Part shown: positions 8,724 through 60,759 of the stretch, in pieces
Position numbering within the stretch: position 1 is the stretch's first letter
How the letters are laid out: every line of letters begins with the position of its first letter
Source of the DNA: Sulfurimonas sp.
GTDB taxonomy: Bacteria; Campylobacterota; Campylobacteria; Campylobacterales; Sulfurimonadaceae
Assembly (NCBI GenBank): GCA_021648285.1
Contig: JAKITC010000007.1
Span: 1 to 64,000 of the forward strand
Direction: 5' to 3'
Length of the DNA: 64,000 bases
Made by a program: the position numbers and the translations under genes
The notes under the pieces: model-generated
What the model was told of the DNA's origin: nothing
The model's input: only the letters and a program-made list of their open reading frames with translations
Database searches by the model: none

Positions 8724-8773
8724 TTAAAGTATACCTATTATTGTATTTTTTATGAAAAATAGGTATACTTTAA
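8724..8773 (+). promoter_or_regulatory. Promoter embedded in a 15-bp perfect inverted repeat
   Basis: Arms TTAAAGTATACCTAT (8724-8738) and its exact reverse complement (8759-8773) flank a 20-nt centre. A promoter fits inside: -35 TTGTAT at 8741-8746, a 17-nt spacer and -10 TATACT at 8764-8769 in the right arm, 29 nt before the ATG at 8798. The symmetry over the promoter suggests an operator for a dimeric repressor. No T-run follows, so it is a poor terminator for cobD. Confidence 0.6.
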
Positions 8774-8797
8774 GAAATCTTTCAAAAATGAGCAAGC

Positions 8798-40793: not shown

Positions 40794-42815
40794 TTATAAA
40801 CTTTTTTCTGCAAATAATTTGTAAACATGCATCGTTTTTATATAAATATTTAATATTTTTTCAATCTGTGATACTAAAATCGTGTTTATCTTTTTTATAT
40901 GTTTTTTGTTATTACTTAGCTCTTTTGTATTAAAAAAATCAAAGATATAAGGGGTTATGTATAAAAAATAAGAGTACATAATATAATTTATATCTAAAGC
41001 TTTTTCTTTTTCTTTTCCTATTAAAGTATTGATAAGTTGAGATAGTGTTAGCATATATAAATCTAGATTTGGATAAGATTTTTTAAGGTTGTAATCTTTT
41101 AGAGTATCAAAAAGATAAATCCCTTCGTTTAAAGCTTCGCTAATGTAATCAGTATCGTCTTGATTTACGTGATTTTGCGAGAAGGATTGAAAGAAATTTT
41201 CTAACTCATTTCTTAATGGCTTAGAAAATATATCCATATTTGTTAGGTTAAAATCTTCTATTTTCAGAGGTATAGTGCCCTTTAAAAATGCACCGTCACT
41301 CAGGTTATATACAGTTTGGTCTGGTTTTTGATACATGTCATGCAACATACCAAAATCATGTATAGAGGTTTTAAAAATAGGTATAGTAGGAACTTTGTCT
41401 AAAAAATTACCTTTGACATAAGCTACAGTGTGTTCAAGTTGATGATTATAAACATCTTCCATTTCATTGTTCAGTTTACCACCTCTTTCATGCTCCTCAT
41501 TTGCATACATTCGTTTTGTTTCTGCATCAAGTGCTAAGTCAAGACCAAGCATATATAGAGTTTTTATTCCAAAGATTAATAATAGTCCATATGATAGTTC
41601 TCCGACACTAGGACTGGTTATAGAGCCAAAATTTTGTTTACAGTGTGAATTGCTTTCAAAGATATAGATGTTTTTCTTTGGTACCATATTTGATACTTTT
41701 TTACTAACCATGGAGGAAAAAACAAATATTGTGTCAGAGAGAAAGCTTTCTACTTTAATACCTTTGAAAAATTTTAATAGTATTTCATCTGGATCAAGAT
41801 TTACTACAATGTCTGGTTTAATATTATGCTTATACAGAGTTTGTAATGAAGCTAGTACACAAATAATAATAAATTTATTCTGGTTTGCTTTAACCCAATC
41901 AATTTGTTTCAATAGTGATGGACCGGCTGCAAGCAGTAAAACAGATTTTTTTACAAAAAAATTATTATTTACATGTTCAGAGATATTAAGATAGTTATAA
42001 TTTTCTACAAGATACTCAGGTGTTTTTAATATATTTTTTAATTGTGTAGCGTATGGATATGCAATGTAATTTTGTGTAATAATTATGTCTTGAATCTTTT
42101 TTATTTTTGAAATATAGTTTTCCGAAAAAATTGTGTATTTTAGGTAATGATTATGATTGTACCCAGAAATTAAATAGTTTTCAAATGTAGATTTAAATTC
42201 AGAATTATTCTCTGCAATAGAATAAAAAATTTTTATATTTTCAAATACTTTGTTATAATCAATAGTAAATAGTGAAAGTCTAAAGAGTTCTAAATCATCT
42301 TCTATTATTAGAACTTTTGATGATTTTATTTTATTTTGAATCAATTCAAGATGCTTTCCATTTCCAACACCAAAAAAAATATATTTTTCTAAGCGTTTGA
42401 GCGTTGTTGTCGCTTTAGGTGCATTTTTTGTTGTGTAAAAAATTAAATTAGATGTTGCATATAATGGAGAATAGGAAATTTCAATTATATCATGGAATTG
42501 TTGAGCGTAATTTTCACTTAAATTTTGATTATAAAATGTTTCAATTACGTTTTCTGTTTTAGTGTGATTTACTTTTTTGGCTACTTTTTTTGATATTTCA
42601 TTGCTATTCTCACCGTATAAGAATTGCTGACTCTCAAGTTCTTGAATATCGAAATAATTATTTTTATATTCAAGAGAATACTTTTCTTTGTATTGTCCGG
42701 TTTCTATCGCAATGTTTAGAAGATTAAGCTTTTTATATACTTCAGGATGTTGTGTAGAAAAATAATCCATGTTATTTTGGTATGTTTGGAGAGCCTGATC
42801 TTCTATGGAGTTCAT
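40794..42815 (-). CDS. Motility-associated Maf glycosyltransferase (DUF115)
   Basis: A 673-aa protein. The central domain has the DUF115/MptE-like signature VLLLAAGPSLLKQIDWV near residue 295, DIVVNLDPDE near 335 and LYMLGLDLALDAETKRMY near 428. Maf proteins transfer nonulosonic acids (pseudaminic or legionaminic acid) onto flagellin in Campylobacter and Aeromonas. Its 3' end faces flagellin, separated by a terminator. It is consistent with flagellin as substrate; the exact sugar is unknown. Confidence 0.85.
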   Translation of the reverse strand: MNSIEDQALQTYQNNMDYFSTQHPEVYKKLNLLNIAIETGQYKEKYSLEYKNNYFDIQELESQQFLYGENSNEISKKVAKKVNHTKTENVIETFYNQNLSENYAQQFHDIIEISYSPLYATSNLIFYTTKNAPKATTTLKRLEKYIFFGVGNGKHLELIQNKIKSSKVLIIEDDLELFRLSLFTIDYNKVFENIKIFYSIAENNSEFKSTFENYLISGYNHNHYLKYTIFSENYISKIKKIQDIIITQNYIAYPYATQLKNILKTPEYLVENYNYLNISEHVNNNFFVKKSVLLLAAGPSLLKQIDWVKANQNKFIIICVLASLQTLYKHNIKPDIVVNLDPDEILLKFFKGIKVESFLSDTIFVFSSMVSKKVSNMVPKKNIYIFESNSHCKQNFGSITSPSVGELSYGLLLIFGIKTLYMLGLDLALDAETKRMYANEEHERGGKLNNEMEDVYNHQLEHTVAYVKGNFLDKVPTIPIFKTSIHDFGMLHDMYQKPDQTVYNLSDGAFLKGTIPLKIEDFNLTNMDIFSKPLRNELENFFQSFSQNHVNQDDTDYISEALNEGIYLFDTLKDYNLKKSYPNLDLYMLTLSQLINTLIGKEKEKALDINYIMYSYFLYITPYIFDFFNTKELSNNKKHIKKINTILVSQIEKILNIYIKTMHVYKLFAEKSL

Positions 42816-42869: not shown

Positions 42870-43430
42870 CTATTGCTTAGCTTGTTCAATATAGTAAGAG
42901 TATATTATATGATTTAAAATCATATGCATATCTTCAACTACTCCATACTGTTCTTTTTGTGTTTGAACATGAAAATTTATATCTGATTGTTCTTTTAGTT
43001 TTCCACCGTCAAAGCCGGTGATGCCCATGATTTTAGCTTTTTTTTCTTTTGCATATTCAACTGCTTTAATTATATTTTCTGAATTTCCACTACATGAAAT
43101 GGCTATTAGCAGGTCATCTTTGTTAAGCCTGTCTTTTAGTTGCATATAAAATATATTTTCATATCCTATATCGTTTGCAATTGCGGTACAAACAGGTGTA
43201 TTGTCGCTTAAACTTTCAACATCAAAACTTTTTATACCTCTTCTTCTAAGCCCTGCACCTAAATCATTTACCATATGAGAAGCAGTGGCGGCACTTCCTC
43301 CATTACCTATTATGTAAATTCTGCCCTTTGTTTTATTAAGTATATTTATAATATCGGATATAGAGTCAAGATCACTGTTTTTTAGTATGGAAATTAGATT
43401 ATTTATGTAGCTGGTTGAAAATTCTTTCAT
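42870..43430 (-). CDS. SIS-domain sugar isomerase, GmhA-like
   Basis: A 186-aa SIS-domain protein. IYIIGNGGSAATASHMVNDLGAGLR near residues 34-58 and ISCSGNSENIIKAVEYA near 109 are typical of phosphoheptose isomerase GmhA and its relatives. It would convert sedoheptulose-7-phosphate to heptose-7-phosphate or isomerise a similar ketose phosphate. It lies between maf and the divergent sugar cluster, which holds other heptose-like functions, so it probably supplies that pathway. Confidence 0.72.
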   Translation of the reverse strand: MKEFSTSYINNLISILKNSDLDSISDIINILNKTKGRIYIIGNGGSAATASHMVNDLGAGLRRRGIKSFDVESLSDNTPVCTAIANDIGYENIFYMQLKDRLNKDDLLIAISCSGNSENIIKAVEYAKEKKAKIMGITGFDGGKLKEQSDINFHVQTQKEQYGVVEDMHMILNHIIYSYYIEQAKQ

Positions 43431-43498
43431 TTTAAAAGCCTTGTAAGTAAATATATTGTATTTTATCGATATAAATTAAATATAAAGATTAAACACCC

Positions 43499-44932
43499 AT
43501 GTATGAAGATACTTATTTTTTGAACCCGAAAGTAGCTCTAATTGTTGCCAATCAAGAGAATAGATATGGTCCAAATAATAATACTTTTTTACAAATATGC
43601 TACTATCACGGTGAAAAAATAGAGAGTGATTTAGTAAACCTGGTGCATCTGCCAATGGAAAACATGCTTGAGAACTTAAGCAATGGAATGCTCAGAATAC
43701 CAGAAAAAATTGATTTTACTGGTATTGATGTTCCAGATAATGCAAAAATACAAATTGAAGATAATATAAATAAAATTTTATCTAAATCCAGAGATTTACA
43801 ATATCGTAATGCCATGAAAAATTATGAAACGGCTAAAACAAACAAATTAAATTTCAATGAAATAATGAAGTTTTATTTACCGGCTAGCGCAAATACTAGA
43901 GTTATGCAATATATTTCTAAAGATATATATGATATTCTCAAAACACGGGAATATAAAGTTATGTACGATTTAACGTATGGAATAGAAAAGTATTCAACTA
44001 TAAGGAAGGTCAGTGAATATAATCCTCATGCTATTATAACAATAAATAATTTTCATAATATGTTTTTAAATGATGAAATATTTAATTTCGTTTGGTTCCA
44101 AGATGTAATGCCTATTATGGTTGATAATGAAGAAATATTACTAAGGGAAAGGGATTATTTTTTTTCATATACAACTACATTTACAGATTTGTTGATTAAA
44201 AAAGGTGTTGATAAAAATAAGATTTTCCAGCAACAGGTTATACCGGTAAATACTAATCAGTTTTATCTTGATGAAAATGTTAACAAAGAGAATAAGATAG
44301 TTTTTGTCGGAAGTTATTATTGTGATGATTATAGTGATTATATAAGCAAAGATATAGACTATGAATTAAATATTTTATTGAAAAAAGGAATTTCTTTATC
44401 AGTTGAAAATATACATGAAGTCTATAAAAAATATAATTTAGTATGCCTGGATAATGCAAACTTTATAACATATATACAGCAACACTATATCAGAAATGCA
44501 TGTGTTGACTGGTTATGTGAAAATCAAACTGTTGATGTTGAAATATATGGGTATGACTGGGATAAAAGTGACAAAGAACATATACTACAAAAGTTTAAAG
44601 GCAAAGCTGAGAAACATGAGTTAAATTATATATACAACAGTACCAAATATGCATTAGCTGCTTCAGGACAAGTTATAAATACACAAAGGCTTGGTGAAAT
44701 TGTACATAGTGGTGCTATTCCTCTAATATACGATTCTAGAGAGATAACTGATGAGTCTGAAACCTGGGATGACGAGTGTCTATATTTTAAAACAAAAGAA
44801 GAGCTAGATTATATTTTAGAAAATAATTTAGAACCAAAGAAATATAGATCTGAGGAAATGCTAAAATATTTTACATATGACAGTTTTTTAGACACTATAT
44901 TGCAAGTAATCGATAAAGATGTAAACAAGTGA
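43499..44932 (+). CDS. Glycosyltransferase (CgeB/GT1-like)
   Basis: A 477-aa protein. The C-terminal third, with KFKGKAEKHELNYIYNSTKYALAASGQVINTQRLGEIVHSGAIPLIY cut short here for space, resembles the 'glycosyl transferases group 1, 2' domain of CgeB-like enzymes: a conserved E(I)VHSG acceptor/donor region near residue 405. The N-terminal ~190 residues are poorly conserved. It opens the plus-strand sugar cluster and overlaps the next gene by 4 nt. It could modify the flagellin glycan. Confidence 0.6.
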   Translation: MYEDTYFLNPKVALIVANQENRYGPNNNTFLQICYYHGEKIESDLVNLVHLPMENMLENLSNGMLRIPEKIDFTGIDVPDNAKIQIEDNINKILSKSRDLQYRNAMKNYETAKTNKLNFNEIMKFYLPASANTRVMQYISKDIYDILKTREYKVMYDLTYGIEKYSTIRKVSEYNPHAIITINNFHNMFLNDEIFNFVWFQDVMPIMVDNEEILLRERDYFFSYTTTFTDLLIKKGVDKNKIFQQQVIPVNTNQFYLDENVNKENKIVFVGSYYCDDYSDYISKDIDYELNILLKKGISLSVENIHEVYKKYNLVCLDNANFITYIQQHYIRNACVDWLCENQTVDVEIYGYDWDKSDKEHILQKFKGKAEKHELNYIYNSTKYALAASGQVINTQRLGEIVHSGAIPLIYDSREITDESETWDDECLYFKTKEELDYILENNLEPKKYRSEEMLKYFTYDSFLDTILQVIDKDVNK

Positions 44933-45924
44933 AAGCTATAGTGACAGGCGGAGCTGGTTTTATAGGCTCTCACATGGTTGACTTGTTGGTTTTAAATGAT
45001 TATGAGGTAATAGTTGTTGATAATCTTGCTAATGGACGTTTAGACAATATTGAGCATCATAAAGGTAAAGTAAAATTTATACAGGCTGATATAGGCAACT
45101 ATGAAGTTGAGCTTGATAGGTACTTTGAAGATGTCGATTACGTGTTTCATTATGCTGCACTTGCTGATATAGTACCATCTATAAATAACCCAATAAAATA
45201 TCATAAAGCAAATGTAGATGGGACTATCAGAGTTTTGGAAGCTAGTAAAAAATCTAAAAATCTAAAAAAGTTTGTATATGCTGCATCTAGCTCATGCTAC
45301 GGTATACCGAATATCTATCCAACCCCTGAGATAAGCCCAATAAAGCCAGAGTACCCTTATGCACACACAAAAACAGTAGGTGAGCAGTATGTTATGCACT
45401 GGGGGCAGGTTTATGATATGCCTGTAATCTCTATGAGATTTTTTAATGTTTATGGTGTTAGGCATCGCACAAGCGGAACTTATGGTGCAGTTTTTGGAGT
45501 GTTTTTAGCACAGCTGTTAAACAATAAGCCTCTTACGATAGTTGGAGATGGAACACAGACTAGAGATTTTACTTATGTCACAGATATAGTAGATGCTTGC
45601 TATAAAGCCAGCCAAAGCGATATTACACAAGAGATTTTTAATGTTGGCAGTGATAATACTTACACTATTAACTATTTGGTCGATTTACTAGGCGGAAACA
45701 AATTATACATACCAAAAAGACCTGGTGAACCAGAGTGTACTTATGCAGATATAAATAAGATAAAAAAAATGCTCGGATGGAAACCAAAAGTTGCTTTTGA
45801 AGATGGGGTTAGGATTATGTTAGAAAATATAGAACAATGGCGAGAAGCACCTGTTTGGGATGAAAGCAGCATAGAAGAAGCTACGAAAGATTGGTTTGAG
45901 TGTTTGGGAGACAAGAGTGAGTAG
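44929..45924 (+). CDS. NAD-dependent nucleotide-sugar epimerase/dehydratase
   Basis: A 331-aa extended short-chain dehydrogenase with GTG start. GGAGFIGSH near residue 7 binds NAD, YAASSSCYG near 124 gives the catalytic serine/threonine region and YAHTK near 145-149 the YxxxK pair. It resembles UDP-glucose/UDP-GlcNAc 4-epimerases. It overlaps the glycosyltransferase stop (GTGA) and the radical SAM gene by 8 nt. Substrate is unknown but clearly a nucleotide sugar by family. Confidence 0.8.
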   Translation: MKAIVTGGAGFIGSHMVDLLVLNDYEVIVVDNLANGRLDNIEHHKGKVKFIQADIGNYEVELDRYFEDVDYVFHYAALADIVPSINNPIKYHKANVDGTIRVLEASKKSKNLKKFVYAASSSCYGIPNIYPTPEISPIKPEYPYAHTKTVGEQYVMHWGQVYDMPVISMRFFNVYGVRHRTSGTYGAVFGVFLAQLLNNKPLTIVGDGTQTRDFTYVTDIVDACYKASQSDITQEIFNVGSDNTYTINYLVDLLGGNKLYIPKRPGEPECTYADINKIKKMLGWKPKVAFEDGVRIMLENIEQWREAPVWDESSIEEATKDWFECLGDKSE

Positions 45925-46972
45925 TTTACTTGATGGACACAAAATAAACTATCATCCACAAGAGATAGCTGACATGTTTAATGGAGAGCTTGAATCGCCG
46001 ATATATGTTGAAATTTCACCGACCGGCATATGTAATCATAAGTGTCTTTTTTGTCATTATAATTATTTAGGACATGAAGGCAGGTTTAAAAAAGGCAAAA
46101 TACTTGAACTTGTAAAAGAGTTTGCTGATATGGGCGTCAAATCTTTAGTGTTCGCCGGTAATGGTGAACCTACTCTACATGTTGATACAATTGAAGCGAT
46201 AGCGTTGTCAAAAAGTTTAGGTATAGATGTCGCTCTAAGCACAAATGGAGCACTATTAAAAGATGAACACTTTGAGATATTGGCTAATTGTTTGACTTGG
46301 ATAAGGTTTTCATTTAATGCTGGAAGTGAAGAAAATTATGCCTTAGTGCATCAAACAAAAAGTGATGATTTTCAAAAAGTTATAGAAAATATCAAAAAAT
46401 TAAAAGAGACTAAAGTTAGACTGAATAGTAATATTACTATTGGAACACAATTTGTACTTATTCCGGAAAATAAAGATTTTGCACTAGAACATGGAAAAAG
46501 ATTAAAATCTCTAGGAGCTGATTACTTTAGTGTAAAGCATTTTTATGACCATTCTCATAACGAATTTAAAGTAACAGAAAATATTTCCGATGAATTTATA
46601 GACGATTTATTAACTCAAGCAAAGAAACTTAGTGATGATGATTTTACTTTTTTAGTGCGAAGTACAAAGAATTTAACTTCTGAGAGAATGTATGATACAT
46701 GTTATGGTCTAGAGTTTATAGTCTTTATAGATGAGAATGGTGATGTCTATAGCTGTTTTTCTCACCAATATGATAAAAAAACGATTATGGGAAATGTTTT
46801 TGAAAATAGTTTTAAAGATATTTGGCAATCTGCACAAAAAGACAAGAGTATAGATCATATTAATAAGTGTATTGATAAAAATAGTTGTCAGCCAAATTGC
46901 AGGCATCACCAAATAAATAATTATTTATGGGAAATAAAAAATCCATCAGTAGAGCACGTTAATTTCATATAA
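45917..46972 (+). CDS. Radical SAM/SPASM protein of the sugar cluster (first)
   Basis: A 351-aa protein with the radical SAM motif C39-x3-C43-x2-C46 (GICNHKCLFC). C-terminal cysteines (around CYGLEF, YSCFS, CIDKNSCQPNC) fit a SPASM region for extra clusters. GTG 45917 was chosen since it overlaps the epimerase stop by 8 nt; an in-frame GTG at 45896 is less likely. Radical SAM/SPASM enzymes modify peptides or sugars; here a sugar is more likely. Substrate unknown; a second homologue lies at 49304. Confidence 0.7.
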   Translation: MSSLLDGHKINYHPQEIADMFNGELESPIYVEISPTGICNHKCLFCHYNYLGHEGRFKKGKILELVKEFADMGVKSLVFAGNGEPTLHVDTIEAIALSKSLGIDVALSTNGALLKDEHFEILANCLTWIRFSFNAGSEENYALVHQTKSDDFQKVIENIKKLKETKVRLNSNITIGTQFVLIPENKDFALEHGKRLKSLGADYFSVKHFYDHSHNEFKVTENISDEFIDDLLTQAKKLSDDDFTFLVRSTKNLTSERMYDTCYGLEFIVFIDENGDVYSCFSHQYDKKTIMGNVFENSFKDIWQSAQKDKSIDHINKCIDKNSCQPNCRHHQINNYLWEIKNPSVEHVNFI

Positions 46973-46980
46973 GGATTACA

Positions 46981-47772
46981 GTGAAACAAATAGCTACAAA
47001 TATTAGAAAAAATATTTTACATATAGCAAATCTTGCAGGCTCTCCCCATGTTGGTTCTGCATTAAGTTGTACTGATATTTTAACCACTTGTTATTTTGAT
47101 ATTTTAAATTTACAAGATTATGAGAATCGAGATTATTTTATACTTTCAAAAGCACACTCAGCTATGGCTCTATACTCTACTTTGCATGAAAAGGGATTAC
47201 TCTCAAAAGATGAGCTAGAAGGGTACTACCAAAACGGGGGAACTTTACCGGCACACACAGATAGATTGACAAACCCTTACATAGAGATCAGTGCAGGAAG
47301 TTTGGGGCATGGATTACCAATTGCTACTGGAATGGCACATGCCTTGAAATTAAAAGAGAGCAACAGACAAGTCTATGTTTTAATGGGTGATGGGGAGTCT
47401 CAAGAGGGAAGTATTTGGGAAGCCGCAATGTTGGCTCCACAACTTGAACTAAATAATCTGACAGTCTTTATAGATAGAAATAATCTACAAGGTTACGGTA
47501 GAGCTGATGAAATACTCTCATATGAGCCAATTGATGACAAATTTAGAGCATTTAATTGGGAAGTTTTACGAATAGATGGACACAACCATCAAGCCATCAA
47601 AGAAGCAGTCGATTTTAAAACTGATAAGCCAAAGATGATAATTTGCGATACGCTAAAAGGCAAAGGCGTAAGTTTTATGGAAGATGAGCTTATTTGGCAC
47701 TATTATGTAGTTACTGATGAGGTAAAAAACAAGGCTATACGTGAGCTAGAGGAATCTTTATATGAGAAATAG
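46981..47772 (+). CDS. Transketolase N-terminal subunit
   Basis: A 263-aa protein with GTG start. HVGSALSCTDIL and FILSKAHSAMALYS near 20-55, SLGHGLPIATGMA near 101 and the TPP motif GDGESQEGS...N near 135-160 belong to the N-terminal half of transketolase. The C-terminal half is the next gene, overlapping by 11 nt. Split transketolases in surface-sugar clusters move a two-carbon ketol unit, so the pair may lengthen or branch a sugar rather than serve central metabolism. Confidence 0.82.
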   Translation: MKQIATNIRKNILHIANLAGSPHVGSALSCTDILTTCYFDILNLQDYENRDYFILSKAHSAMALYSTLHEKGLLSKDELEGYYQNGGTLPAHTDRLTNPYIEISAGSLGHGLPIATGMAHALKLKESNRQVYVLMGDGESQEGSIWEAAMLAPQLELNNLTVFIDRNNLQGYGRADEILSYEPIDDKFRAFNWEVLRIDGHNHQAIKEAVDFKTDKPKMIICDTLKGKGVSFMEDELIWHYYVVTDEVKNKAIRELEESLYEK

Positions 47773-48637
47773 TGTAGCAGATAAGATTAAAAAAATAGCA
47801 AAAATTGACGAGACACTTTTTGTAATAGCCGGAGATGCCGGACTTGGTGTTTGGGATGATTTCAAAAATTCTAAGCAGTTTATAAATCCTGGCGTTAATG
47901 AGCAGCTTGACATTGGTTTTGGTGCAGGAATGTCTTTAATGGGACATAAGGTTATATATTATAATATCGCTCCGTTTGTGATAATGAGACCTTATGAATT
48001 TGTGCGAAATGACATCTGTTATCAAGAGCTGCCAATGATTCTAATAGGGACAGGAAGTGGTATTACCTATGCCCCGGCCGGTGTTACACACTATGTGGTT
48101 GAGGATATTACTTTGGCCTCAACAATGCCAAATCTTGATATATTTTCTCCGGCTGATCCTGTTGAAGCAGTTGAATGTTTTAATTATGCCTATAAAAGTA
48201 AAAGACCTAGTTATATACGAATTGCCAAAAACGGTGAAGATGTAATCCATACAGAAAAAATAGATATAACAAAACCGATTTTTATAAATAAGAATGACTC
48301 CAAAAATATTTTAATTCTGCATGGATCAATCGTCGATGAAGTTTCAAAAATTTTGGGTATTGTCGACATCAATATTGTAAGTGTTCCTATGTTAACAAGT
48401 GACTTTAATTGGGAAGAGTTTTTGAGTGGTTATGATAAGGTCTTTACGTTGGAAGAACATTTTATCAATGGTGGATTTGGGACAATGTTAAGAGACAAAA
48501 TTGATAAAAAGATACATAAGTTTGGTCTAAAAAATGAGTACATTCACAAAATAGGCGACAGAGACTACTTAAGAGAATATTATGAGATTGACGGAAAGAG
48601 TGTCGGAAATAAAGTTAAGGACATAATTAATGGGTAA
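47762..48637 (+). CDS. Transketolase C-terminal subunit
   Basis: A 291-aa protein carrying the pyrimidine-binding part, e.g. GVNEQLDIGFGAGMSLMG near 43-60 and APAGVTHYVVEDI near 100-112, where the histidine acts in catalysis, and a C-terminal EEHFINGGFGTML near 230. It pairs with the preceding N-terminal subunit. It overlaps the following methyltransferase by 8 nt. As in other LPS-type clusters, the donor and acceptor sugars are not known. Confidence 0.82.
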   Translation: MRNSVADKIKKIAKIDETLFVIAGDAGLGVWDDFKNSKQFINPGVNEQLDIGFGAGMSLMGHKVIYYNIAPFVIMRPYEFVRNDICYQELPMILIGTGSGITYAPAGVTHYVVEDITLASTMPNLDIFSPADPVEAVECFNYAYKSKRPSYIRIAKNGEDVIHTEKIDITKPIFINKNDSKNILILHGSIVDEVSKILGIVDINIVSVPMLTSDFNWEEFLSGYDKVFTLEEHFINGGFGTMLRDKIDKKIHKFGLKNEYIHKIGDRDYLREYYEIDGKSVGNKVKDIING

Positions 48638-49292
48638 GCTTTTAGATATAGTAACAAAACTTCATACAAGAACCTCAAGAGATTATGTTTCAAGAATGGT
48701 TGATGACAAGATTAACTGTATGATTAAGTCAAAAGAGTATGGATATGATTATTGGGACGGTGATAGAAAATATGGCTATGGCGGTTATAAATATGATGGA
48801 CGATGGAAAGTTGTTGCACAAGACTTAATTAATGAGTATGGTTTAGTAGACGGATGCAAAATACTTGATGTTGGTTGCGGTAAAGCATTTTTACTATATG
48901 AACTAAAACAACTGCTTCCAAATAGTGAAGTTGTTGGTATAGATAGCAGTAAATATGCAATAGAAAATGCAAAAGAGGAAGTAAGAGATACTTTGCGGGT
49001 ACTAGGAGCAGAAGAAACTTACCCTTTTGGAGAAAATGAATTTGATTTAGTCATCTCTCTAACAACACTTCACAACTTAAAAATATATGATTTGAAAAAA
49101 GCTATACAAGAGTGTCAAAGAGTCGGTAAAAATAAATACATTATGCTCGAAGCTTATAGAGATGAAGCAGAACTCTTTAACCTTGAGTGTTGGGCTTTGA
49201 CATGTGAGAGTTTTTTTAGACCGGATGAGTGGATATGGATGTATGATGAATGGGGATATAATGGTGATTATGAATTTATATATTTTGAGTAG
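48630..49292 (+). CDS. SAM-dependent methyltransferase of the sugar cluster
   Basis: A 220-aa protein with motif I ILDVGCGKAFLLYE near residue 75, GIDSSKYAIENAK near 103 and FDLVISLTTLHNL near 137, a Methyltransf_11-like fold. The N-terminal ~65 residues are Tyr/Gly-rich (YGYGGYKYDG). It probably methylates an intermediate of the flagellar sugar. It overlaps the transketolase subunit by 8 nt. Confidence 0.72.
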   Translation: MGKLLDIVTKLHTRTSRDYVSRMVDDKINCMIKSKEYGYDYWDGDRKYGYGGYKYDGRWKVVAQDLINEYGLVDGCKILDVGCGKAFLLYELKQLLPNSEVVGIDSSKYAIENAKEEVRDTLRVLGAEETYPFGENEFDLVISLTTLHNLKIYDLKKAIQECQRVGKNKYIMLEAYRDEAELFNLECWALTCESFFRPDEWIWMYDEWGYNGDYEFIYFE

Positions 49293-49303
49293 GAAATTTT
49301 TTT

Positions 49304-50371
49304 ATGGCAAATAAGTATTCAAATTTAAAAATATTCCACTATCAAGATAAGCTAGAGAGTCTGCCAAAAAATATTAGTGATATTAAAGCACCTATACATA
49401 TTAGAATAAAACCTACAAATGTATGTAATCACGATTGCTGGTATTGTGCATATAAAGTAGATCATCTACAACTTGGACAAGACATGGTTGAGAGGGACTA
49501 CATCCCATATGATAAGATGATGGAAATTGTAGATGATTGTAAAGATATGGGTGTAAAGGCCCTAACGTTTAGCGGTGGCGGTGAGCCTTTTGTCTATAGA
49601 TACTTTACAGATACCATTAAAAAAGTTATAGACTCCAAGATATCATTCGCATCGCTTACAAACGGAAGCAGACTAAGTGGAGAAATAGCTGAACTGTTTG
49701 CATATAATGGAACTTGGCTAAGAGTATCCATCGATGGTTATGATGATGAAAGTTATGCGGAATATAGAGGTGTAAAAGTTGGAGAATTTAGTAATATTGT
49801 AGAAAATATGAAAAATTTTGCAAATCTTCCAAATAGAACATGTAACCTTGGTGTCAGTTTTATTGTTGATGACAAAAACTATACTAAGCTATGTGAATTC
49901 TCACAACTTATGAAAGATATAGGCGTGGATAGTATTAAAATATCACCATGTATAGTTGATAATGACGGTAATAAAAACAATGAGTACCATAAACCATTTT
50001 ATGACGAAGCAAAAGAGTTGTCATGCAAGGTGAAACTTGAACTTGAAGATGAAAGCTTTGAAGTGTTTGATAGCTACCATCTGCTTGAAGATAAGTTTGA
50101 GAAAGATTATGATTGGTGCCCTTATTCACAGATAAATCCTGTTATTGGTGCAGATATGAATATATACCCTTGTCATGATAAAGCTTATAATTTAGAAAAT
50201 GGGCTGCTTGGGAGTATAAAAGATATAAGTTTTAAAGATTTTTGGTTTAATGATAAAAATACATTTTTTAAAATAAATCCATCAGTACATTGTAATAATC
50301 ACTGTGTTGTAAATGATAAAAATAAAATGATACTTGATTACTTAGATGTAGAGCATTTGGGGTTTGTGTAA
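49304..50371 (+). CDS. Radical SAM/SPASM protein of the sugar cluster (second)
   Basis: A 355-aa protein with C41-x3-C45-x2-C48 (NVCNHDCWYC), ALTFSGGGEPFVY near 88 (a SAM-binding GGEP motif) and C-terminal cysteines (YDWCPYSQIN, IYPCHDKA, CNNHC) of a SPASM-like domain. It is related in layout to the gene at 45917, but not closely. Such enzymes may dehydrate, epimerise or form C-C bonds on sugars. It shares one base with the next gene. Confidence 0.72.
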   Translation: MANKYSNLKIFHYQDKLESLPKNISDIKAPIHIRIKPTNVCNHDCWYCAYKVDHLQLGQDMVERDYIPYDKMMEIVDDCKDMGVKALTFSGGGEPFVYRYFTDTIKKVIDSKISFASLTNGSRLSGEIAELFAYNGTWLRVSIDGYDDESYAEYRGVKVGEFSNIVENMKNFANLPNRTCNLGVSFIVDDKNYTKLCEFSQLMKDIGVDSIKISPCIVDNDGNKNNEYHKPFYDEAKELSCKVKLELEDESFEVFDSYHLLEDKFEKDYDWCPYSQINPVIGADMNIYPCHDKAYNLENGLLGSIKDISFKDFWFNDKNTFFKINPSVHCNNHCVVNDKNKMILDYLDVEHLGFV

Positions 50372-51072
50372 TGGAAAATAATTTAAATGTTGGAAAGTAT
50401 CATAAAAGTGTTGATGAGTACTCTGATTTAATAAATGAAGTCTACAAAAATTATCCGGATGGGGTGACATTACCTCCAATGTATGCACAGTTTGTTGACA
50501 AGAGTATGTCAAATATACTTATTAGACTTAGTAGGTATAAGTTTGTAGTAAAGATGTTGAAAAAGAGTGATGAAGTGCTTGAAGTTGGTTGCGGATCTGG
50601 GCTTGGTTCAATATATTTATCACAAGAGTGTCAAAATGTTTATGGTATTGATGTGCAAAAACAGGAGATTGCTGAAGCACAAGAGCTTAATAGAAGAGAA
50701 AATGTTATTTTTGAGGTAAAAGATCTGTTTTTACTAGATGAGAATAAAAAGTATGATGCAATTGTTTGCTTGGATGTTTTAGAACACTTAAGCGTAGAAG
50801 ACGGCAGAAAATTTATTGAAAAAATCTCTAAACTGTTGAAGCCAAATGGTTTTTTTGCCTGCGGAGTACCCAGTATCTACTCATATGAGTTTCAAAGTTC
50901 ATTAAGTCAAGCCTCTCATATAAACTGTCCAGACAGAGATGATTTAGAGAGAGAACTATCTACCTCGTTTAATAGAATTTTTCCTTTTTCTATGAATGAT
51001 GAACTAGTGCATACCGGGTTTCAAAAGCTCGCCTGGTATTATCTTATGTTGTGCACAAATCCAAAGGTATAG
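50371..51072 (+). CDS. Class I methyltransferase of the sugar cluster
   Basis: A 233-aa protein with EVLEVGCGSGLGSIYLSQ near residue 70 (motif I), YGIDVQKQEIAEA and YDAIVCLDVLEHL near 127, typical of the Methyltransf_23/UbiG-like group. It starts at the last base of the preceding radical SAM gene. An O- or C-methyl transfer on the glycan is likely by context; the substrate cannot be read. Confidence 0.72.
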   Translation: MENNLNVGKYHKSVDEYSDLINEVYKNYPDGVTLPPMYAQFVDKSMSNILIRLSRYKFVVKMLKKSDEVLEVGCGSGLGSIYLSQECQNVYGIDVQKQEIAEAQELNRRENVIFEVKDLFLLDENKKYDAIVCLDVLEHLSVEDGRKFIEKISKLLKPNGFFACGVPSIYSYEFQSSLSQASHINCPDRDDLERELSTSFNRIFPFSMNDELVHTGFQKLAWYYLMLCTNPKV

Positions 51073-51074
51073 AT

Positions 51075-51812
51075 ATGAGTAAAATAGTTTTTGTGACAGC
51101 TTCAAGTGGTGGATTTGGTTTTCAAATTGCTTTGGACATGTCAGAAAAAGGTTATATTATAGTACTTAATGGCAGAAATATAGATAGTTTAAACAAGGCA
51201 AAATCAAAACTTTATAATAAAGAGGCGCACCACATATTTTGCTGTGATCTTACTAAAGATGATATGCCTGCAAAATTGGATGATTTTTTTACAAAAAACA
51301 ATATTTTACCAAATATACTTATTCACTCTCTAGGTGGGAAAGTTGCTCAGGATAAGCACCCAATCAAGCTACACACATTGAGCGAAACTATGAATTTGAA
51401 TTTAAACAGTTCCATATTGATTAATAATTATTTTATTCCCAGATTCCAAAACACTAAAGAGATTCAAAAGATTATACACATCAGCTCTTCTGCCTCTATT
51501 ACCGGTAATGCAGCACCCTCTTACTCAATTAGCAAGGCAGCTCTCAATATGTATATAAAAAATAGTGCAAGATATTATGCCTTGGATAATATTATGTTCT
51601 GTGGTATTGTCCCTAATATAATAATGCATGAAAATAGCGATTGGAAAGAAAAACAAGAAAATGACCCTAAGTATTATCAAAAGAGAGTTGATAATATGCC
51701 ATTAAAAGAGTTTGCAAAACCTGAACAGTTAACACCTTATATATGTTCGGTATGTGAAATAGAGAGTATGTATGCTACGGGTTCATTAATTGAACTGCAG
51801 GGTGGTGCATGA
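51075..51812 (+). CDS. Short-chain dehydrogenase/reductase of the sugar cluster
   Basis: A 245-aa protein. ATG 51075 directly follows the previous stop; an in-frame ATG at 51051 is rejected. TASSGGFGFQIA near the start is the cofactor loop (TGxxxGxG variant), IIHISSSASITGNAAPSYSISKAAL contains the catalytic Ser and YxxxK. C-terminal LIELQGGA is typical of FabG-like SDRs. It probably reduces or oxidises a keto-sugar. It overlaps the next gene by 4 nt. Confidence 0.78.
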   Translation: MSKIVFVTASSGGFGFQIALDMSEKGYIIVLNGRNIDSLNKAKSKLYNKEAHHIFCCDLTKDDMPAKLDDFFTKNNILPNILIHSLGGKVAQDKHPIKLHTLSETMNLNLNSSILINNYFIPRFQNTKEIQKIIHISSSASITGNAAPSYSISKAALNMYIKNSARYYALDNIMFCGIVPNIIMHENSDWKEKQENDPKYYQKRVDNMPLKEFAKPEQLTPYICSVCEIESMYATGSLIELQGGA

Positions 51813-52936
51813 TGAATGAGTATTTGAGTTTTTATGAAAAATATAAGATTTCGCCTGTTGTTCAAAATATAGATGATTTTAAACAACATGTAAGAAGACG
51901 TACTAATCTATATAGACAATTAGGGGTATCTCCGATTACTTTTAAAGATAAAGATGTTTTAGAGATAGGTCCGGGTGGTGGATATAATGCTTTAGTAACA
52001 TATACGTATGAGCTAAAAACATATACATTAGTAGAGCCAAATACAACAGGTTATAATGAACTAAAGAATAATTTTAAAGATATAAATAATAATAATATTT
52101 TTATATTTAATGACATGTTAGAAGATTTTAAAGTAACAAAGCAGTATGATATTATCATATGTGAAGGACTTATACCTGGACTTAGTTCAAAGGATAGTTT
52201 TATTAATGTGATTAAGTCTTTACTAAAACCAAATGGAATCTTTATTATGACAACTTCAGACCAAGTATCTGTCTTTTTTGAAATAGTCAGAAAATATATG
52301 GCAAATATCTTAATAGAAAATATTGAAGAAATCGATAAAAAAGTTGAAATATTGGTTGACTCATTTTCCTCACATCTTAAGACTTTAAAAGGTATGACAA
52401 GAAGTCATTCCGACTGGTGTTTAGATAACCTGATAGGAGATGCAATACTTGAACATACTCTCACTATAAACCATGCAATAGAGTTACTTAAAAGTGATTG
52501 TTATGTTTTAGGGAGCTCTCCTGATCTGTTTACTAACTACTCTTGGTATAAAGAGTTGCCTACTGACACAGTAGAGTATAATAAAATATTTCAAGAGCAG
52601 TTCCTTAAAAAATGGCATAGTTTTATTGATTATCGATTTATACAAAAAGATAGAGAGAGTTCTAAAAATACAGAGCTCGCAGAATATTGTTTGGCATTAA
52701 TTAGCGCAATAAAAAATTCAGATAAGAAAAAGAATATACTTGATATTTTAGAAAAGATACAAACAAACTTGAAAGCAGATATTGAAGAAGGAACTATCTT
52801 GAGCATGGATGAAATAATTGAAGTCATTAGTAGCGGTATAACACCAGAAAAAATAAAAAACATGAAGTTTTTCAGTTCAGCCTTTGGCAGAGGTCAATCC
52901 TATATTAGTTTTGCAAAAGAGAATAGTGCATTATGA
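51809..52936 (+). CDS. Methyltransferase with C-terminal extension
   Basis: A 375-aa protein. The N-terminal part carries VLEIGPGGGYNAL near residue 50 (motif I) and YDIIICEGLIPGL near 112; the last ~180 residues are helical with no recognised motif. There is ATG-ATG choice at 51809/51812. It overlaps neighbours by 4 nt on both sides. A role in sugar methylation follows only from position. Confidence 0.62.
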   Translation: MMNEYLSFYEKYKISPVVQNIDDFKQHVRRRTNLYRQLGVSPITFKDKDVLEIGPGGGYNALVTYTYELKTYTLVEPNTTGYNELKNNFKDINNNNIFIFNDMLEDFKVTKQYDIIICEGLIPGLSSKDSFINVIKSLLKPNGIFIMTTSDQVSVFFEIVRKYMANILIENIEEIDKKVEILVDSFSSHLKTLKGMTRSHSDWCLDNLIGDAILEHTLTINHAIELLKSDCYVLGSSPDLFTNYSWYKELPTDTVEYNKIFQEQFLKKWHSFIDYRFIQKDRESSKNTELAEYCLALISAIKNSDKKKNILDILEKIQTNLKADIEEGTILSMDEIIEVISSGITPEKIKNMKFFSSAFGRGQSYISFAKENSAL

Positions 52937-54036
52937 ATAGAACTTGCATAATCTGTAATCACAATGATTTCAACATATTACTTAATTATAATAATGAAAA
53001 AGTCGTAACCTCAGATAATAAAATAGCTAATCAAAATTTTCAGCTATTAGAGTGCAAGAGATGTTCACATGTACAAAAGAAAATAGATTCAAATTTATTG
53101 AAAATAATTGATAAGATTTATGCTGAGTATGAAGCGTATTACCTTACTGGCGGGGAAGAAGAAGCTAAAATAGATTCAAACAATACAAATACTAACAGAT
53201 CTAAGACAATAGTGAATAATATCGCTGATATTGTTAAACAAGATGGAAATATCTTAGATATTGGAACAGGCTCAGGTGTTTTTTTAGAGGAGTTTTTAAA
53301 AGTTTTTAATTGGGATCTATTTGCTCAAGATGTAAAAATCAGTAAAAATAATAATTTGCACAAATTGAAGAATTTCAAAATTTTTTTTATACAAAACAAA
53401 GAGCCGTTGGACTCTGATTTCTTTGATATTATATCTGCCATACATGTGTTTGAGCATATTATTGATTTAGAAGAGTTTTTACTTTCAATAAAAAAATCTT
53501 TAAAAGCTGATGGTGTTTTAGTTTTACAGGTTCCAAATATATATGAAAATTTATTTGATATTTTTATTATAGACCATATATCACATTTTCATAGAAGTAC
53601 AATTTTTTATATATTAAAAAAGTATTTTAAATTTGTATATTTTCCCAAAAATCAGATTTATAGAGAGATTACAGCTATTGCTACAGATAAAGAGATAGAG
53701 TTTAGTCATGATACATCAATGGAACAAAAAGAGATAAATAAAGAAAAAATCAATGGTTTAATAGTCTCTTTAGTAGATATGGATAATACGATAGCAATAT
53801 TTGGAACCTCACCGCCTGCACTTTTTTGCGCAACTTTACTGAATTTTAAAATAGACTATTTTGTAGATGAAAACTTAAAAAAAACAGATAAAAAATTGTT
53901 TGACAAAAATATTATCCATCCAAGTGATGTAGATTCAGATATTCAGGTACTATTTCCTTATTCAAAAGAGGTGTTGATGGATATAAAAAAAAGATATCCA
54001 TCTTTAAACCTGATTTATATAGAGAGCACAATATGA
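52933..54036 (+). CDS. Sugar C-methyltransferase-like protein with N-terminal zinc site
   Basis: A 367-aa protein in three parts. Four cysteines C5-x2-C8 and C41-x2-C44 match the zinc-binding N-terminus of NovU/TylC3-type C-methyltransferases. The core has ILDIGTGSGVFLEEF near residue 110 and ISAIHVFEHI near 168. The last ~100 residues (IAIFGTSPPALFC) fit the C-methyltransferase C-terminal domain. Such enzymes add a branching methyl to a nucleotide-linked keto-sugar. It overlaps the HldE-like gene by 4 nt. Confidence 0.75.
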   Translation: MNRTCIICNHNDFNILLNYNNEKVVTSDNKIANQNFQLLECKRCSHVQKKIDSNLLKIIDKIYAEYEAYYLTGGEEEAKIDSNNTNTNRSKTIVNNIADIVKQDGNILDIGTGSGVFLEEFLKVFNWDLFAQDVKISKNNNLHKLKNFKIFFIQNKEPLDSDFFDIISAIHVFEHIIDLEEFLLSIKKSLKADGVLVLQVPNIYENLFDIFIIDHISHFHRSTIFYILKKYFKFVYFPKNQIYREITAIATDKEIEFSHDTSMEQKEINKEKINGLIVSLVDMDNTIAIFGTSPPALFCATLLNFKIDYFVDENLKKTDKKLFDKNIIHPSDVDSDIQVLFPYSKEVLMDIKKRYPSLNLIYIESTI

Positions 54037-55448
54037 TTAAAGTATTTGTAAGCGGTGATTTTAATATACTTCATCCAGGTCATTTGAGACTTTTGAAATT
54101 TGCAAAAGAGAGTGGAGATTATTTGATTGTTGGTGTAAACGGCGATAATTTGAACCAGAAGGGGATAGGACAAGATATTCGTTTAGAATCTATAGAAGCT
54201 ACTAGTTATGTTGATGAAGCCTTTATTCTTGCTGTACCGGCTGTTGAGTATATAAAAGAGAATAAACCTAATATAATTGTAAAAGGTAAAGAACATGAAA
54301 ACAGAGAGAACCCAGAATTAGATATTATAAGTAAATACGGTGGAAAACTTCTGTTTAGCTCTGGTGAAATAGGTTTTTCATCAATGGACCTTCTAAGACA
54401 AGAATTTCTTTCAGTAAACTACAATGTTCAACACAGCTCCAACTATTTAAAAAGACATGATTTTAATTTTGATAATTTAAAAAGTATTATAGAAAAATTT
54501 TCAAATATTAATGTTTTAGTTATAGGCGATACTATAGTTGATGAGTATATTACATGTGAGCCTCTCGGAATGAGTCAAGAAGATCCAACTATAGTAGTTA
54601 GTCCACTAGCCTCCAATAAGTTTATAGGAGGAGCGGCTATAGTGGCTAGTCATGCAAAAACACTTGGTGCCAATGTAAAATTTATCTCTGTTGTTGGAGA
54701 TGATGAGAATAAGAATTATGTAGAAAGCGGACTCAAAGAGTTAGGTATTGATGTATCACTGTACACAGACACAACAAGACCTACGACACTTAAGCAAAGG
54801 TTTCGGGCAAAAGATAAAACTCTTCTTAGGGTAAATCATTTAAAACAGCATGGTATAAGCAAGGATATTGAAAATAGCATTTTGAATAATATACAAAAGT
54901 CGATGATTGAGATAGATTTGATAATATTTTCTGATTTCAGTTATGGAGTTTTAACAAAAACACTTATAAATAGTATATCGGCATTTGGAGTTGAAAATAC
55001 TATTCAAATGGCCGCCGATTCACAAAGTTCATCACAAGTTGGAGATATATCAAAATTTAAAAATATGACACTGCTTACTCCAACTGAGAGAGAGATTAGA
55101 CTATCTTTAAATGATTTTGAATCAGGTCTGGTCGTCTTGTCGGATAAATTATTAGAAAGTACTAATGCTAAATATATATTTACAACTTTAGGTGCAGAAG
55201 GGGTGATGATATATAATAATTCCGTCGATACGCCCTTGCTGACAGATAATATAAATGCTTTAGGAAGCGTAGTTAAAGATGTTAGTGGCGCAGGCGATTC
55301 GCTACTTACATGTAGCTCTATGGCGATATGTGTTGGGGCGGATATTTGGCAGAGTGCATATCTTGGTTCTTTAGCCTCTGCTATACAGGTTAGTCGCATA
55401 GGTAATGTGCCTATAAAAAAAGAAGAAGTCTTGAGAGAGTTAGAGTAG
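54033..55448 (+). CDS. HldE-like fusion with reversed domain order: cytidylyltransferase then PfkB kinase
   Basis: A 471-aa protein. The N-terminal ~130 residues are a cytidylyltransferase-like domain with H14-P-G-H17 (HxGH); the C-terminal ~310 residues are a PfkB/ribokinase-type sugar kinase with GGAAIVASHAKTLGA near 200 and the anion-hole DVSGAGDSLL near 416-425. Standard HldE has the kinase first. It may phosphorylate a sugar-phosphate and then activate it with a nucleotide. With the GmhA-like isomerase it fits a heptose-like pathway. Substrate unproven. Confidence 0.78.
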   Translation: MIKVFVSGDFNILHPGHLRLLKFAKESGDYLIVGVNGDNLNQKGIGQDIRLESIEATSYVDEAFILAVPAVEYIKENKPNIIVKGKEHENRENPELDIISKYGGKLLFSSGEIGFSSMDLLRQEFLSVNYNVQHSSNYLKRHDFNFDNLKSIIEKFSNINVLVIGDTIVDEYITCEPLGMSQEDPTIVVSPLASNKFIGGAAIVASHAKTLGANVKFISVVGDDENKNYVESGLKELGIDVSLYTDTTRPTTLKQRFRAKDKTLLRVNHLKQHGISKDIENSILNNIQKSMIEIDLIIFSDFSYGVLTKTLINSISAFGVENTIQMAADSQSSSQVGDISKFKNMTLLTPTEREIRLSLNDFESGLVVLSDKLLESTNAKYIFTTLGAEGVMIYNNSVDTPLLTDNINALGSVVKDVSGAGDSLLTCSSMAICVGADIWQSAYLGSLASAIQVSRIGNVPIKKEEVLRELE

Positions 55449-55451
55449 TAG

Positions 55452-56159
55452 ATGAAAGCATTACTGTTAGCTGCTGGACATGGAACAAGACTTCGACCAG
55501 TCACAGATGTGACTCCAAAGTGCTTAGTCCCAATAGATGGAAAACCTTTACTAGAGTATTGGCTTGAAAACTTAAGCAGGAGCGGGATTGAAGAGTTCTT
55601 AATAAACACATCATATCTCTCTGAGCAGGTTGAGGAGTTTGTGAAAAGTAGTCAATACAGAGATAAAGTGACTTTAGCTCACGAAAACAAACTTTTAAAT
55701 ACTGGTGGCACACTTTTAGCAAATGAAAAGTTTTTTGACGATAAAGCATTCATGTTAGTTCATGCAGATAATTTATCATTTTGTGATTTTAAAGATTTTA
55801 TAGAGTCCCATAAAAATAGACCTCTTGGATGCGAGATGACAATGATGCTGTTTGAAAGTGATACACCTAGCAGTTGCGGTGTTGTAAAGCTTGATGAAAA
55901 TTATATTGTTCAAGAGTTCTATGAGAAAGTTGAGAATCCACCATCAAATCTGGCAAATGGTGCTGTATATATCTGTGAACCGGCTATTTTTGAATTTTTA
56001 CACTCATTAGGCAGAGACGAGATTGATTTTAGCAATGATATATTGCCAAATTATATTGGTAAAATAAATACTTTCCTAAACGATGTTTATCACAGAGATA
56101 TAGGAACTCGAGAAAGTTATGTTTTAGCACAACAAGAAATTATTGATTTTAAAAAATAA
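55452..56159 (+). CDS. Sugar-1-phosphate nucleotidyltransferase (HddC-like)
   Basis: A 235-aa protein with ALLLAAGHGTRLRPVTDVTPKCLVP, the nucleotide-binding signature, and HADNLSF near residue 101 as the metal-binding segment. It activates a sugar phosphate as an NDP-sugar, as in HddC or mannose guanylyltransferases. It lies 3 nt after the HldE-like gene and closes the plus-strand cluster. Nucleotide and sugar choice cannot be read. Confidence 0.8.
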   Translation: MKALLLAAGHGTRLRPVTDVTPKCLVPIDGKPLLEYWLENLSRSGIEEFLINTSYLSEQVEEFVKSSQYRDKVTLAHENKLLNTGGTLLANEKFFDDKAFMLVHADNLSFCDFKDFIESHKNRPLGCEMTMMLFESDTPSSCGVVKLDENYIVQEFYEKVENPPSNLANGAVYICEPAIFEFLHSLGRDEIDFSNDILPNYIGKINTFLNDVYHRDIGTRESYVLAQQEIIDFKK

Positions 56160-57448: not shown

Positions 57449-57456
57449 GTTCTATC

Positions 57457-58059
57457 CTAGAGTTCTATGAAATTTTTAAATAGTTGTATTCCAGCTTCAC
57501 GACTTTTTTCGGGATGAAATTGTACTCCATAAATATTTTCTTTATGTATAGAAGAAACAAATTTATGACCGGCATAATCGGTAAGAGAACTAATATCTGT
57601 ATAATTAACCACTTCATATGAATGCATAAAATAAAATTCCTCATTTTCTAAACCGTTCAATACTTTATTAGATTTAAGAACTTCGATATTATTAAAACCC
57701 ATGTGAGGAACTTTTGCATCTACCAAAATCGGCTTTACTTCTGCATTTATTACACATAAACCTTTAGTCTCTCCATATTCAAAACCAAGTGATGAAAGTA
57801 TCTGCATGCCAAGACATATACCTAAGGTTGGTTTATCTTTGATTACTTCTTTCAAGACAACTAATAAATCATCATTGTCAAGCTCTTTTATAGCATCCCT
57901 AAAACTTCCAACACCGGGAATGACTATCTTATCTACAGTAGCTAATTTTTCTTTTTTACTTATAACTTTTACTATACCGCCAGCTTTTTCAATTGCTTTT
58001 TTTATACTATGAATATTTCCAGCAATTCCATAGTTTATCACACCTATTATATTACTCAT
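57457..58059 (-). CDS. hisH: HisH-type glutaminase subunit (sugar amidotransferase partner)
   Basis: A 200-aa class I glutaminase with Cys82 in LGICLGMQ and the H182-x-E184 pair in QFHPEKS. It releases ammonia from glutamine and passes it to the HisF-type subunit; overlap with that gene is 4 nt. Because the locus lacks other his genes and includes the amidotransferase, it is probably a second, sugar-specific copy rather than the histidine enzyme. Confidence 0.85.
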   Translation of the reverse strand: MSNIIGVINYGIAGNIHSIKKAIEKAGGIVKVISKKEKLATVDKIVIPGVGSFRDAIKELDNDDLLVVLKEVIKDKPTLGICLGMQILSSLGFEYGETKGLCVINAEVKPILVDAKVPHMGFNNIEVLKSNKVLNGLENEEFYFMHSYEVVNYTDISSLTDYAGHKFVSSIHKENIYGVQFHPEKSREAGIQLFKNFIEL

Positions 58060-60710: not shown

Positions 60711-60759
60711 ATATGGCATGAACAATTTAGATAGTGATGATAAAAAAAAGGATTCCAAT

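Follow-up and report, generated by a model that had tools for sequence, protein, structure and literature searches.

Which sugar is made by a compact set of carbohydrate genes that lies among flagellar genes in a Sulfurimonas species? The set is found within the 64,000 nucleotides analysed here, positions 1 to 64,000 of contig JAKITC010000007.1 (assembly GCA_021648285.1), hereafter the window; the contig (C18 in our numbering) belongs to a 1.97-Mb draft genome. The initial annotation took the set for a pathway to an unusual flagellar sugar, possibly branched, C-methylated and of higher carbon number, and its central point stands: the genes form a single tightly spaced, operon-like group that would serve an unusual activated sugar in a flagellar setting. 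Going further on the basis of sequence, we put at about even the chances that this cassette makes an activated sugar with a two-carbon branch, a second flagellin glycan beside acetamidino-legionaminic acid. The argument turns on a two-gene thiamine diphosphate (ThDP) enzyme and on its neighbour RS1, the radical S-adenosylmethionine (SAM) protein that marks the cassette.

Thirteen plus-strand genes (43499-56159), all open frames, run between the flagellin and Maf genes and FliD, as tightly packed as first described: neighbour spacing in the window's open reading frame (ORF) list is -29 to +11 bases, with successive gaps of -4, -29, 8, -11, -8, 11, -1, -22, -4, -4, -4 and 3. For the -29 and -22 overlaps the true extent is probably less, since the TTG or GTG starts picked by the ORF listing may lie too far upstream; the true start of RS1 is probably a few codons downstream of the listed one. 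A fourteenth gene, for the SIS protein, is also an open frame and diverges from the run. The genes are as follows.

42870..43430, minus: SIS-domain phosphosugar isomerase, GmhA-like (Pfam SIS_2/SIS)
43499..44932, plus: glycosyltransferase-like protein (Pfam Glyco_trans_1_2), with relatives in 9 other compared loci
44929..45924, plus: NAD-dependent epimerase of the GalE kind, NADepi (Pfam NAD epimerase; no model above an equivalog cut-off)
45896..46972, plus: RS1, radical SAM protein with a SPASM/twitch-like C-terminus (Pfam Radical_SAM and SPASM), the cassette marker
46981..47772, plus: TKN, N-terminal (ThDP-binding) subunit of a split transketolase (Pfam Transketolase_N)
47762..48637, plus: TKC, C-terminal (pyrimidine-binding) subunit of the split transketolase (Pfam Transket_pyr), catalytic Glu kept
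48630..49292, plus: MT1, SAM methyltransferase (Pfam), a recurrent neighbour of RS2
49304..50371, plus: RS2, radical SAM protein (Pfam Radical_SAM, no SPASM match)
50371..51072, plus: MT2, UbiG-like SAM methyltransferase (Pfam)
51051..51812, plus: short-chain dehydrogenase/reductase, SDR (Pfam)
51809..52936, plus: MT3, SAM methyltransferase (Pfam)
52933..54036, plus: MT4, SAM methyltransferase with CxxC pairs at its N-terminus (Pfam)
54033..55448, plus: reversed HldE, a cytidylyltransferase-like domain followed by a PfkB kinase (Pfam)
55452..56159, plus: sugar-1-phosphate nucleotidyltransferase, the NTP gene (Pfam NTP_transferase)

Pfam models thus bear out the split transketolase, the four methyltransferases, the reversed HldE and the SIS isomerase that had been read from the letters alone. 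A foreign origin was considered, but composition gives no sign of one: with GC fractions of 0.317 and 0.332, cassette and window differ little.

Two-gene thiamine enzymes beside RS1

RS1 scores at least 220 bits in 14 of the 149 genomes searched, its own genome counted, and a scan with one genome per species gave at least 55 RS1-type loci, 44 of those listed being strong (E 2e-43 or better). The comparison set holds 54 loci besides the window, 41 from the species scan and 13 from relatives; L052 and L055 (which duplicate the records of L029 and L030) and L075 (displaced by a longer overlapping frame) are left out of the counts, and L085, with two RS1 copies, is counted once. Eleven weak radical SAM loci from the same species scan serve as controls. 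By record title, and among the matches listed, the RS1 loci compared fall into about 13 phyla. One relative (L026) has all 14 genes in unchanged order at 50-90% identity, adjoining flagellin and Maf; this conservation, together with the wide recurrence of the parts, argues for an arrangement beyond chance. The same gene set does recur near a flagellin elsewhere, a search that the initial annotation had proposed; its parts recur widely and are not confined to flagella. NADepi shares 80-88% identity with its counterparts in many Campylobacterota cassettes and 50-62% with those in other phyla. RS1 marks a modular cassette that is spread over many phyla and reaches beyond flagella. The set is also seen on plasmid records, with a split transketolase, PfkB and SIS in Solidesulfovibrio, and E1 alpha, a transketolase C-terminal protein, PfkB and SIS in Azospirillum. 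Streptomyces plasmid matches (28-29% identity) comprise one annotated record, with no split transketolase annotated nearby, and a second record that carries no annotation.

The window's enzyme has the features of a split-chain transketolase: separate N and C subunits, the GDG..N motif and the catalytic Glu, with the N-terminal component of a split-chain transketolase (6yak) as the best solved relative of TKN (E 5e-58). A two-gene ThDP enzyme stands in 41 of the 54 RS1 loci—a split transketolase in 24 and an E1 alpha/beta pair in 17, as labelled by similarity and excluding an AHAS-like ThDP enzyme at L049. The two kinds never share a locus (0 of 54, against 7.6 expected if independent; P 3e-6, ignoring kinship). 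None of the 11 control loci has a two-gene ThDP enzyme; two of them hold full-length transketolases. Mapped on the maximum-likelihood RS1 tree, the E1 label requires 10 changes, of which supported branches force at least 8, and an E1 locus (L046) pairs with a transketolase locus (L060) at support 98/78; the tree labels are those of an earlier count (25 transketolase, 15 E1, 40/54 in all) and differ from the similarity-based ones for L051 and L074. Split transketolase and E1 pair have thus taken each other's place repeatedly.

What the two kinds have in common is a two-carbon unit held on ThDP and passed to a carbonyl, and the catalytic Glu is conserved in both (23/23 members of the TKC cluster, 12/12 E1 beta). 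Since sedoheptulose phosphate is not an expected product of an E1 pair, the swap favours two-carbon carboligation over a supply of that phosphate. The two-carbon transfer named in the initial annotation gains from this, and its word "branched" fits. We also considered the E1 pairs as ordinary pyruvate dehydrogenase and set this aside, as E2 (PF00198) occurs in 9/15 such genomes, on other contig numbers (assuming that the numbering matches). Separately, TKC is just 162-187 amino acids long in 13 of the 23 members, too short to hold the usual C-terminal domain, with the catalytic Glu kept (L028, L030, L032, L035, L038-L041, L057, L060, L072, L078 and L079).

Split copies also occur away from RS1: a TKN search of the 149 genomes returned them, and nine such loci were compared. 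In L116 (4616-12198) the split transketolase lies with RfbF, RfbG and RfbH, all three above NCBIfam cut-offs; of those tested elsewhere, RfbG and RfbH in L117, RfbH in L122 and RfbF in L119 pass. The RfbF/RfbG/RfbH route ends in CDP-4-keto-3,6-dideoxyglucose (CDP, cytidine diphosphate), the acceptor of YerE. AHAS-like ThDP genes are also present in L117, L119 and L122 (by similarity, and by Pfam for L117), which leaves L116 as the only clean case of a split transketolase alone beside Rfb genes. An Rfb-type set was not seen in the other five loci (L115, L118, L120, L121 and L123); L115 combines the split transketolase, MT1 and SIS with a different radical SAM protein. The surface-sugar clusters of other Campylobacterota at L116 (4616-12198), L117 (214-6401) and L122 (3107-10210) might serve to make yersiniose-like sugars that carry a hydroxyacetyl branch.

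Radical SAM proteins and heptose-type genes

RS1 and RS2 both carry CxxxCxxC and exceed the radical SAM cut-off (PF04055, 29.5), with 85.3 and 73.2 bits respectively. Both had been called radical SAM/SPASM proteins; the SPASM half of that call holds for RS1 (PF13186, 40.2 bits, cut-off 21.5), and RS2 has no match to the model despite four C-terminal cysteines. In RS1 the CxxxCxxC and C-terminal four-cysteine patterns are present in 55/55 rows, the latter in keeping with a single auxiliary cluster like that of BtrN and other dehydrogenases. The AlphaFold 2 (AF2) model of RS1 (predicted local distance difference test, pLDDT, 89.9) has a near tie among its nearest folds: SuiB (Z 25.8, 293 residues), DesII (25.2, 349), SkfB (24.9, 294) and BlsE (23.9, 298). 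DesII, which acts on nucleoside diphosphate (NDP) sugars, and BlsE belong to the radical SAM enzymes whose substrates are sugar nucleotides or nucleoside sugars; SPASM maturases modify peptides. BtrN was rejected as the closest fold, being listed at Z 16.6, well under DesII and SuiB. The RS2 model (pLDDT 77.6) lies near SkfB, DesII and BlsE. MT1 accompanies RS2 in all nine loci that have RS2 near RS1, and in other cassettes a further radical SAM family, RS1b, replaces RS2.

Several of the remaining genes belong to families known from heptose metabolism. The SIS protein scores 110 bits against gmhA (TIGR00441, cut-off 209.45) and is therefore GmhA-like rather than GmhA. It is a second copy: another contig, C3, holds an ordinary heptose route, with a GmhA-like gene (by similarity) and GmhB, HldE and HldD (by model). 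The window's HldE has its domains reversed (CTP_transf_like at 6-87, PfkB at 160-457) and falls below both equivalog cut-offs (204.5 bits against TIGR02198, cut-off 345; 57 against TIGR02199, cut-off 181.5); the HldE of C3 has the canonical order and passes both. The NTP gene product reaches 85.7 bits against HddC (NF049965, cut-off 300), and other nucleotidyltransferase models score higher. Two full-length transketolases are also encoded elsewhere in the genome. With these and a separate heptose route at hand, the split transketolase, SIS protein and reversed HldE of the window look dedicated to the cassette.

Of the 54 RS1 loci, 25 have SIS and 27 a reversed HldE, about half in each case. 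In the window's subfamily of reversed HldE the G..RP motif, which we take to be tied to nucleotidyl transfer in HldE, is absent (0/15, against 13/14 in the other subfamily), and a nucleotidyltransferase gene lies beside all 15 (13 of the window's NTP family, 2 of a related one), against 0/14. In our reading, the HldE half has given up nucleotidyl transfer, a step probably taken over by the NTP gene. HAD hydrolases of GmhB size occur in five loci. Of the 19 RS1 loci that lack SIS/HldE, 7 have genes of GT9, a heptosyltransferase family, against 0 of the 35 in which SIS/HldE are present (a test chosen after seeing the data); this hints at ADP-heptose as the substrate in the former group.

The methyltransferases fit the initial annotation less well. 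MT4 was the only one of the four that resembled a sugar C-methyltransferase, a family that presumably has solved members, and that call was not retained: MT4 has no match at E 0.01 among solved structures and matches generic Pfam methyltransferase models only. Since MT4 lacks a solved relative and MT1 alone recurs (with RS2), the predicted C-methylation finds little support; methyl groups may sit on oxygen, nitrogen or carbon, and may be O- or N-linked decoration. B12-binding radical SAM genes, a possible source of C-methyl groups there, occur in the sister cassettes L029 (5230-7104), L030 (5495-7294) and L038 (5357-6787).

Three further observations concern relatives of RS1 and its cassette. 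A podovirus (MW202801.1; L114 5980-7044) has a radical SAM gene resembling RS1 (27% identity, E 2e-24); it lies two genes past the gene for the major capsid protein, with glycosyltransferase and methyltransferase genes behind it. An Arcobacteraceae cassette (L053) has AAA-type ATPase genes at 4751-5890 and 8066-9187 among its genes; a transketolase pair was looked for at that locus and not found. At L038 (1685-5345) the cassette is followed by genes for an HMGL/DmpG-like aldolase and for acetaldehyde dehydrogenase, and an AHAS-like ThDP enzyme is encoded there too.

Predicted pathway and competing explanations

From the gene content and order, their conservation, the kept catalytic motifs and the ThDP interchange, we infer the reactions that follow, along with the heptose scaffold, RS1 as ketone maker and attachment to flagellin. 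SIS and the kinase half of reversed HldE would convert sedoheptulose 7-phosphate to a heptose bisphosphate, whose terminal phosphate would be taken off by GmhB, encoded elsewhere in the genome, or by the HAD phosphatase of some sister cassettes. The dedicated nucleotidyltransferase would give NDP-heptose, or another keto-sugar may be the scaffold. NADepi and RS1 would then set the stereochemistry and a ring ketone, the oxidation probably being due to RS1. The split transketolase could place a hydroxyacetyl unit on this ketone to give a nine-carbon branched sugar, its donor being a ketose phosphate or hydroxypyruvate rather than pyruvate. RS2, SDR and the methyltransferases would finish the sugar, and the local glycosyltransferase and Maf would attach it to flagellin. 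The weakest links are the ketone maker—RS1, NADepi or SDR—and heptose as the scaffold. A wider generalisation is possible, and we hold it only tentatively: a widespread and hitherto undescribed class of surface sugars in which an activated heptose is given a ketone by a radical SAM enzyme and receives two carbons at that position from a two-gene ThDP enzyme of either kind, for flagella in Campylobacterota and for other surface glycans in about a dozen phyla. Within it the transketolase type would give a hydroxyacetyl branch and the E1 type an acetyl branch, both on nine-carbon sugars.

Branched-sugar pathways are already known; the setting is new. As described in the passages of PMC12247030 on ThDP enzymes, E1-type enzymes use pyruvate to branch keto-sugars at C3 or C4 in antibiotic sugars, YerE performs the two-carbon branching of CDP-3,6-dideoxy-4-keto-glucose in the yersiniose A pathway, and split-gene transketolases, there from Streptomycetes only (13 putative sequences), are proposed to transfer hydroxyacetyl onto a keto-sugar. 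The cassette resembles the Streptomyces miharamycin/amipurimycin systems, for which the same passages propose a two-gene transketolase acting on a keto-sugar; there, however, an oxidoreductase is the proposed ketone maker, whereas here surface-glycan clusters of many phyla carry a radical SAM protein. It also resembles the alpha-keto acid dehydrogenase 2 of the aldgamycin, kibdelomycin and avilamycin type, a two-gene ThDP enzyme that adds two carbons at C3/C4 (again per those passages), although that is an E1 type with pyruvate as donor and the window has the transketolase kind. Likeness to YerE lies in the split transketolases found with Rfb genes of the yersiniose A route in L116, L117 and L122; YerE itself belongs to another family, being a ThDP enzyme of the decarboxylase type, and the window has no CDP-dideoxy genes. 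The ADP- and guanosine diphosphate (GDP)-heptose pathways (GmhA, HldE, GmhB, HddC) share the isomerase, kinase and nucleotidyltransferase families, but differ in that here the HldE domains are reversed, scores fall under equivalog cut-offs and the operon has no GmhB.

Several points weigh against the branched sugar proposed here. A transketolase or E1 pair was not seen in 13 of the 54 RS1 loci. Three of these are at contig ends (L033, L036, L069) and L049 has its AHAS-like enzyme instead, but L054, L073, L085, L089 and L092 have long flanks and still no pair, so RS1 may have another job. Three genomes (G037, G133 and G136) have RS1 and a split transketolase with only a canonical-type HldE match; heptose from the SIS/HldE set is thus not required. 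The fold of RS1 is as close to the peptide maturases SuiB and SkfB as to DesII, and on the model such similarity would leave its reaction undefined. Apart from those of the relatives, most of the loci compared come from metagenome bins, whose phylum labels may be partly wrong. Finally, in the passages of PMC12247030 on split-gene transketolases their use of ketones is a proposal only, with no in vitro demonstration given there.

Among the alternatives, the split transketolase might merely feed sedoheptulose 7-phosphate to SIS and HldE, the product being an unbranched, epimerised and methylated heptose and the radical SAM chemistry epimerisation or deoxygenation. Campylobacter capsules carry modified heptoses comparable to such a product, SIS, kinase and nucleotidyltransferase all lie within the cluster, and L123 has SIS, HAD, a nucleotidyltransferase and a split transketolase without RS1. 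We nevertheless consider this unlikely, given that E1 pairs, from which no sedoheptulose phosphate is expected, stand in for the split transketolase in 17 loci, that the genome already has two full transketolases, and that RS1 and split transketolase co-occur without reversed HldE in the three genomes named above.

Alternatively, the cassette may make two sugars, a heptose (SIS, HldE, NTP gene, NADepi) and a product of the radical SAM, transketolase and methyltransferase genes on another scaffold. A block of RS1, transketolase, MT1 and RS2 indeed occurs without SIS, HldE, NADepi or NTP genes in L027 and L031, reversed HldE was not found in those genomes, and the window has two nucleotidyltransferase domains. 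In the window and L026, however, the genes of the two blocks are mixed within a single operon, both blocks are found together in many phyla, and the loss of G..RP coincides with the extra nucleotidyltransferase, as would fit one activation route; we rate two sugars as rather improbable.

A further option, for which we see only a slim chance, is that the ThDP step extends the chain at an aldehyde by ordinary ketol transfer, giving a linear 8- or 9-carbon sugar. Transketolases normally use aldehydes, and NADepi and SDR could act after chain extension; against this, the passages of PMC12247030 concerned describe ketone branching by E1-type enzymes of sugar clusters, and split transketolases also lie beside CDP-4-keto-3,6-dideoxyglucose genes. 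That RS1 and RS2 modify a peptide, with the operon only loosely sugar-related, is very improbable: SuiB and SkfB are among the closest folds, but DesII and BlsE are about as close, most loci have sugar enzymes as neighbours, and we noticed no gene for a precursor among the operon's listed frames, which have at least 90 amino acids.

Flagellar setting and significance

Returning to the proposed branched sugar, its likely destination is suggested by the neighbours. One flank of the cassette holds flagellin (38897-40675) and the Maf/MptE-like protein; on the other, a WbuX, HisH and HisF set is followed by FliD (58891-60564) and FliS (60718-61134), with flagellin, FliD and FliS identified by eye. 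The two other neighbours are as follows.

40794..42815, minus: Maf-type flagellin glycosyltransferase (Pfam MptE-like and Maf_flag10_N; 79.5 bits against the PseD model, below cut-off), the likely user of the sugar
56231..58811, minus: WbuX/HisH/HisF-like amidotransferase set (WbuX 323.6 bits, cut-off 203.2), a separate pathway, probably for the acetamidino group of a nonulosonic acid

The position next to flagellin and to Maf and FliD is that of a flagellin glycosylation locus. Flagellin and Maf adjoin the cassette in the window, L026 and L032, and FliD does so in L027, L035, L039, L040 and L041. In Campylobacter flagellin glycosylation loci, legionaminic or pseudaminic acid genes lie next to flagellin. 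The window resembles these loci in adjoining flagellin with Maf and amidination genes, but the nonulosonic acid genes are on C3 and none is in this operon. We accordingly rejected a plain legionaminic or pseudaminic acid operon: no gene of the NeuB type lies in the cassette, and a search of the genome found NeuB on C3 only. There, the LegC aminotransferase reaches 559.6 bits (cut-off 420), NeuC and NeuB exceed their cut-offs and the PseF model stays below its own, which makes legionaminic acid likelier than pseudaminic acid as the ordinary acid; the WbuX set suggests its acetamidino form as the ordinary flagellar sugar.

In the open-access literature, with subscription journals and preprints not covered, no listed paper presents one pathway that unites radical SAM chemistry with transketolase and with flagellin or heptose glycans, in keeping with the earlier remark that no flagellar glycan is known from this combination. 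In the passages of PMC12247030 concerned, branching of keto-sugars by split-gene transketolases is an open question, and the cassette offers many non-Streptomycete pairs; with RS1 as partner and E1 pairs in the same place as a natural control, the question becomes directly testable. If the branched sugar is real, it would be a new kind of flagellar glycan and would give radical SAM enzymes a role in surface sugars.

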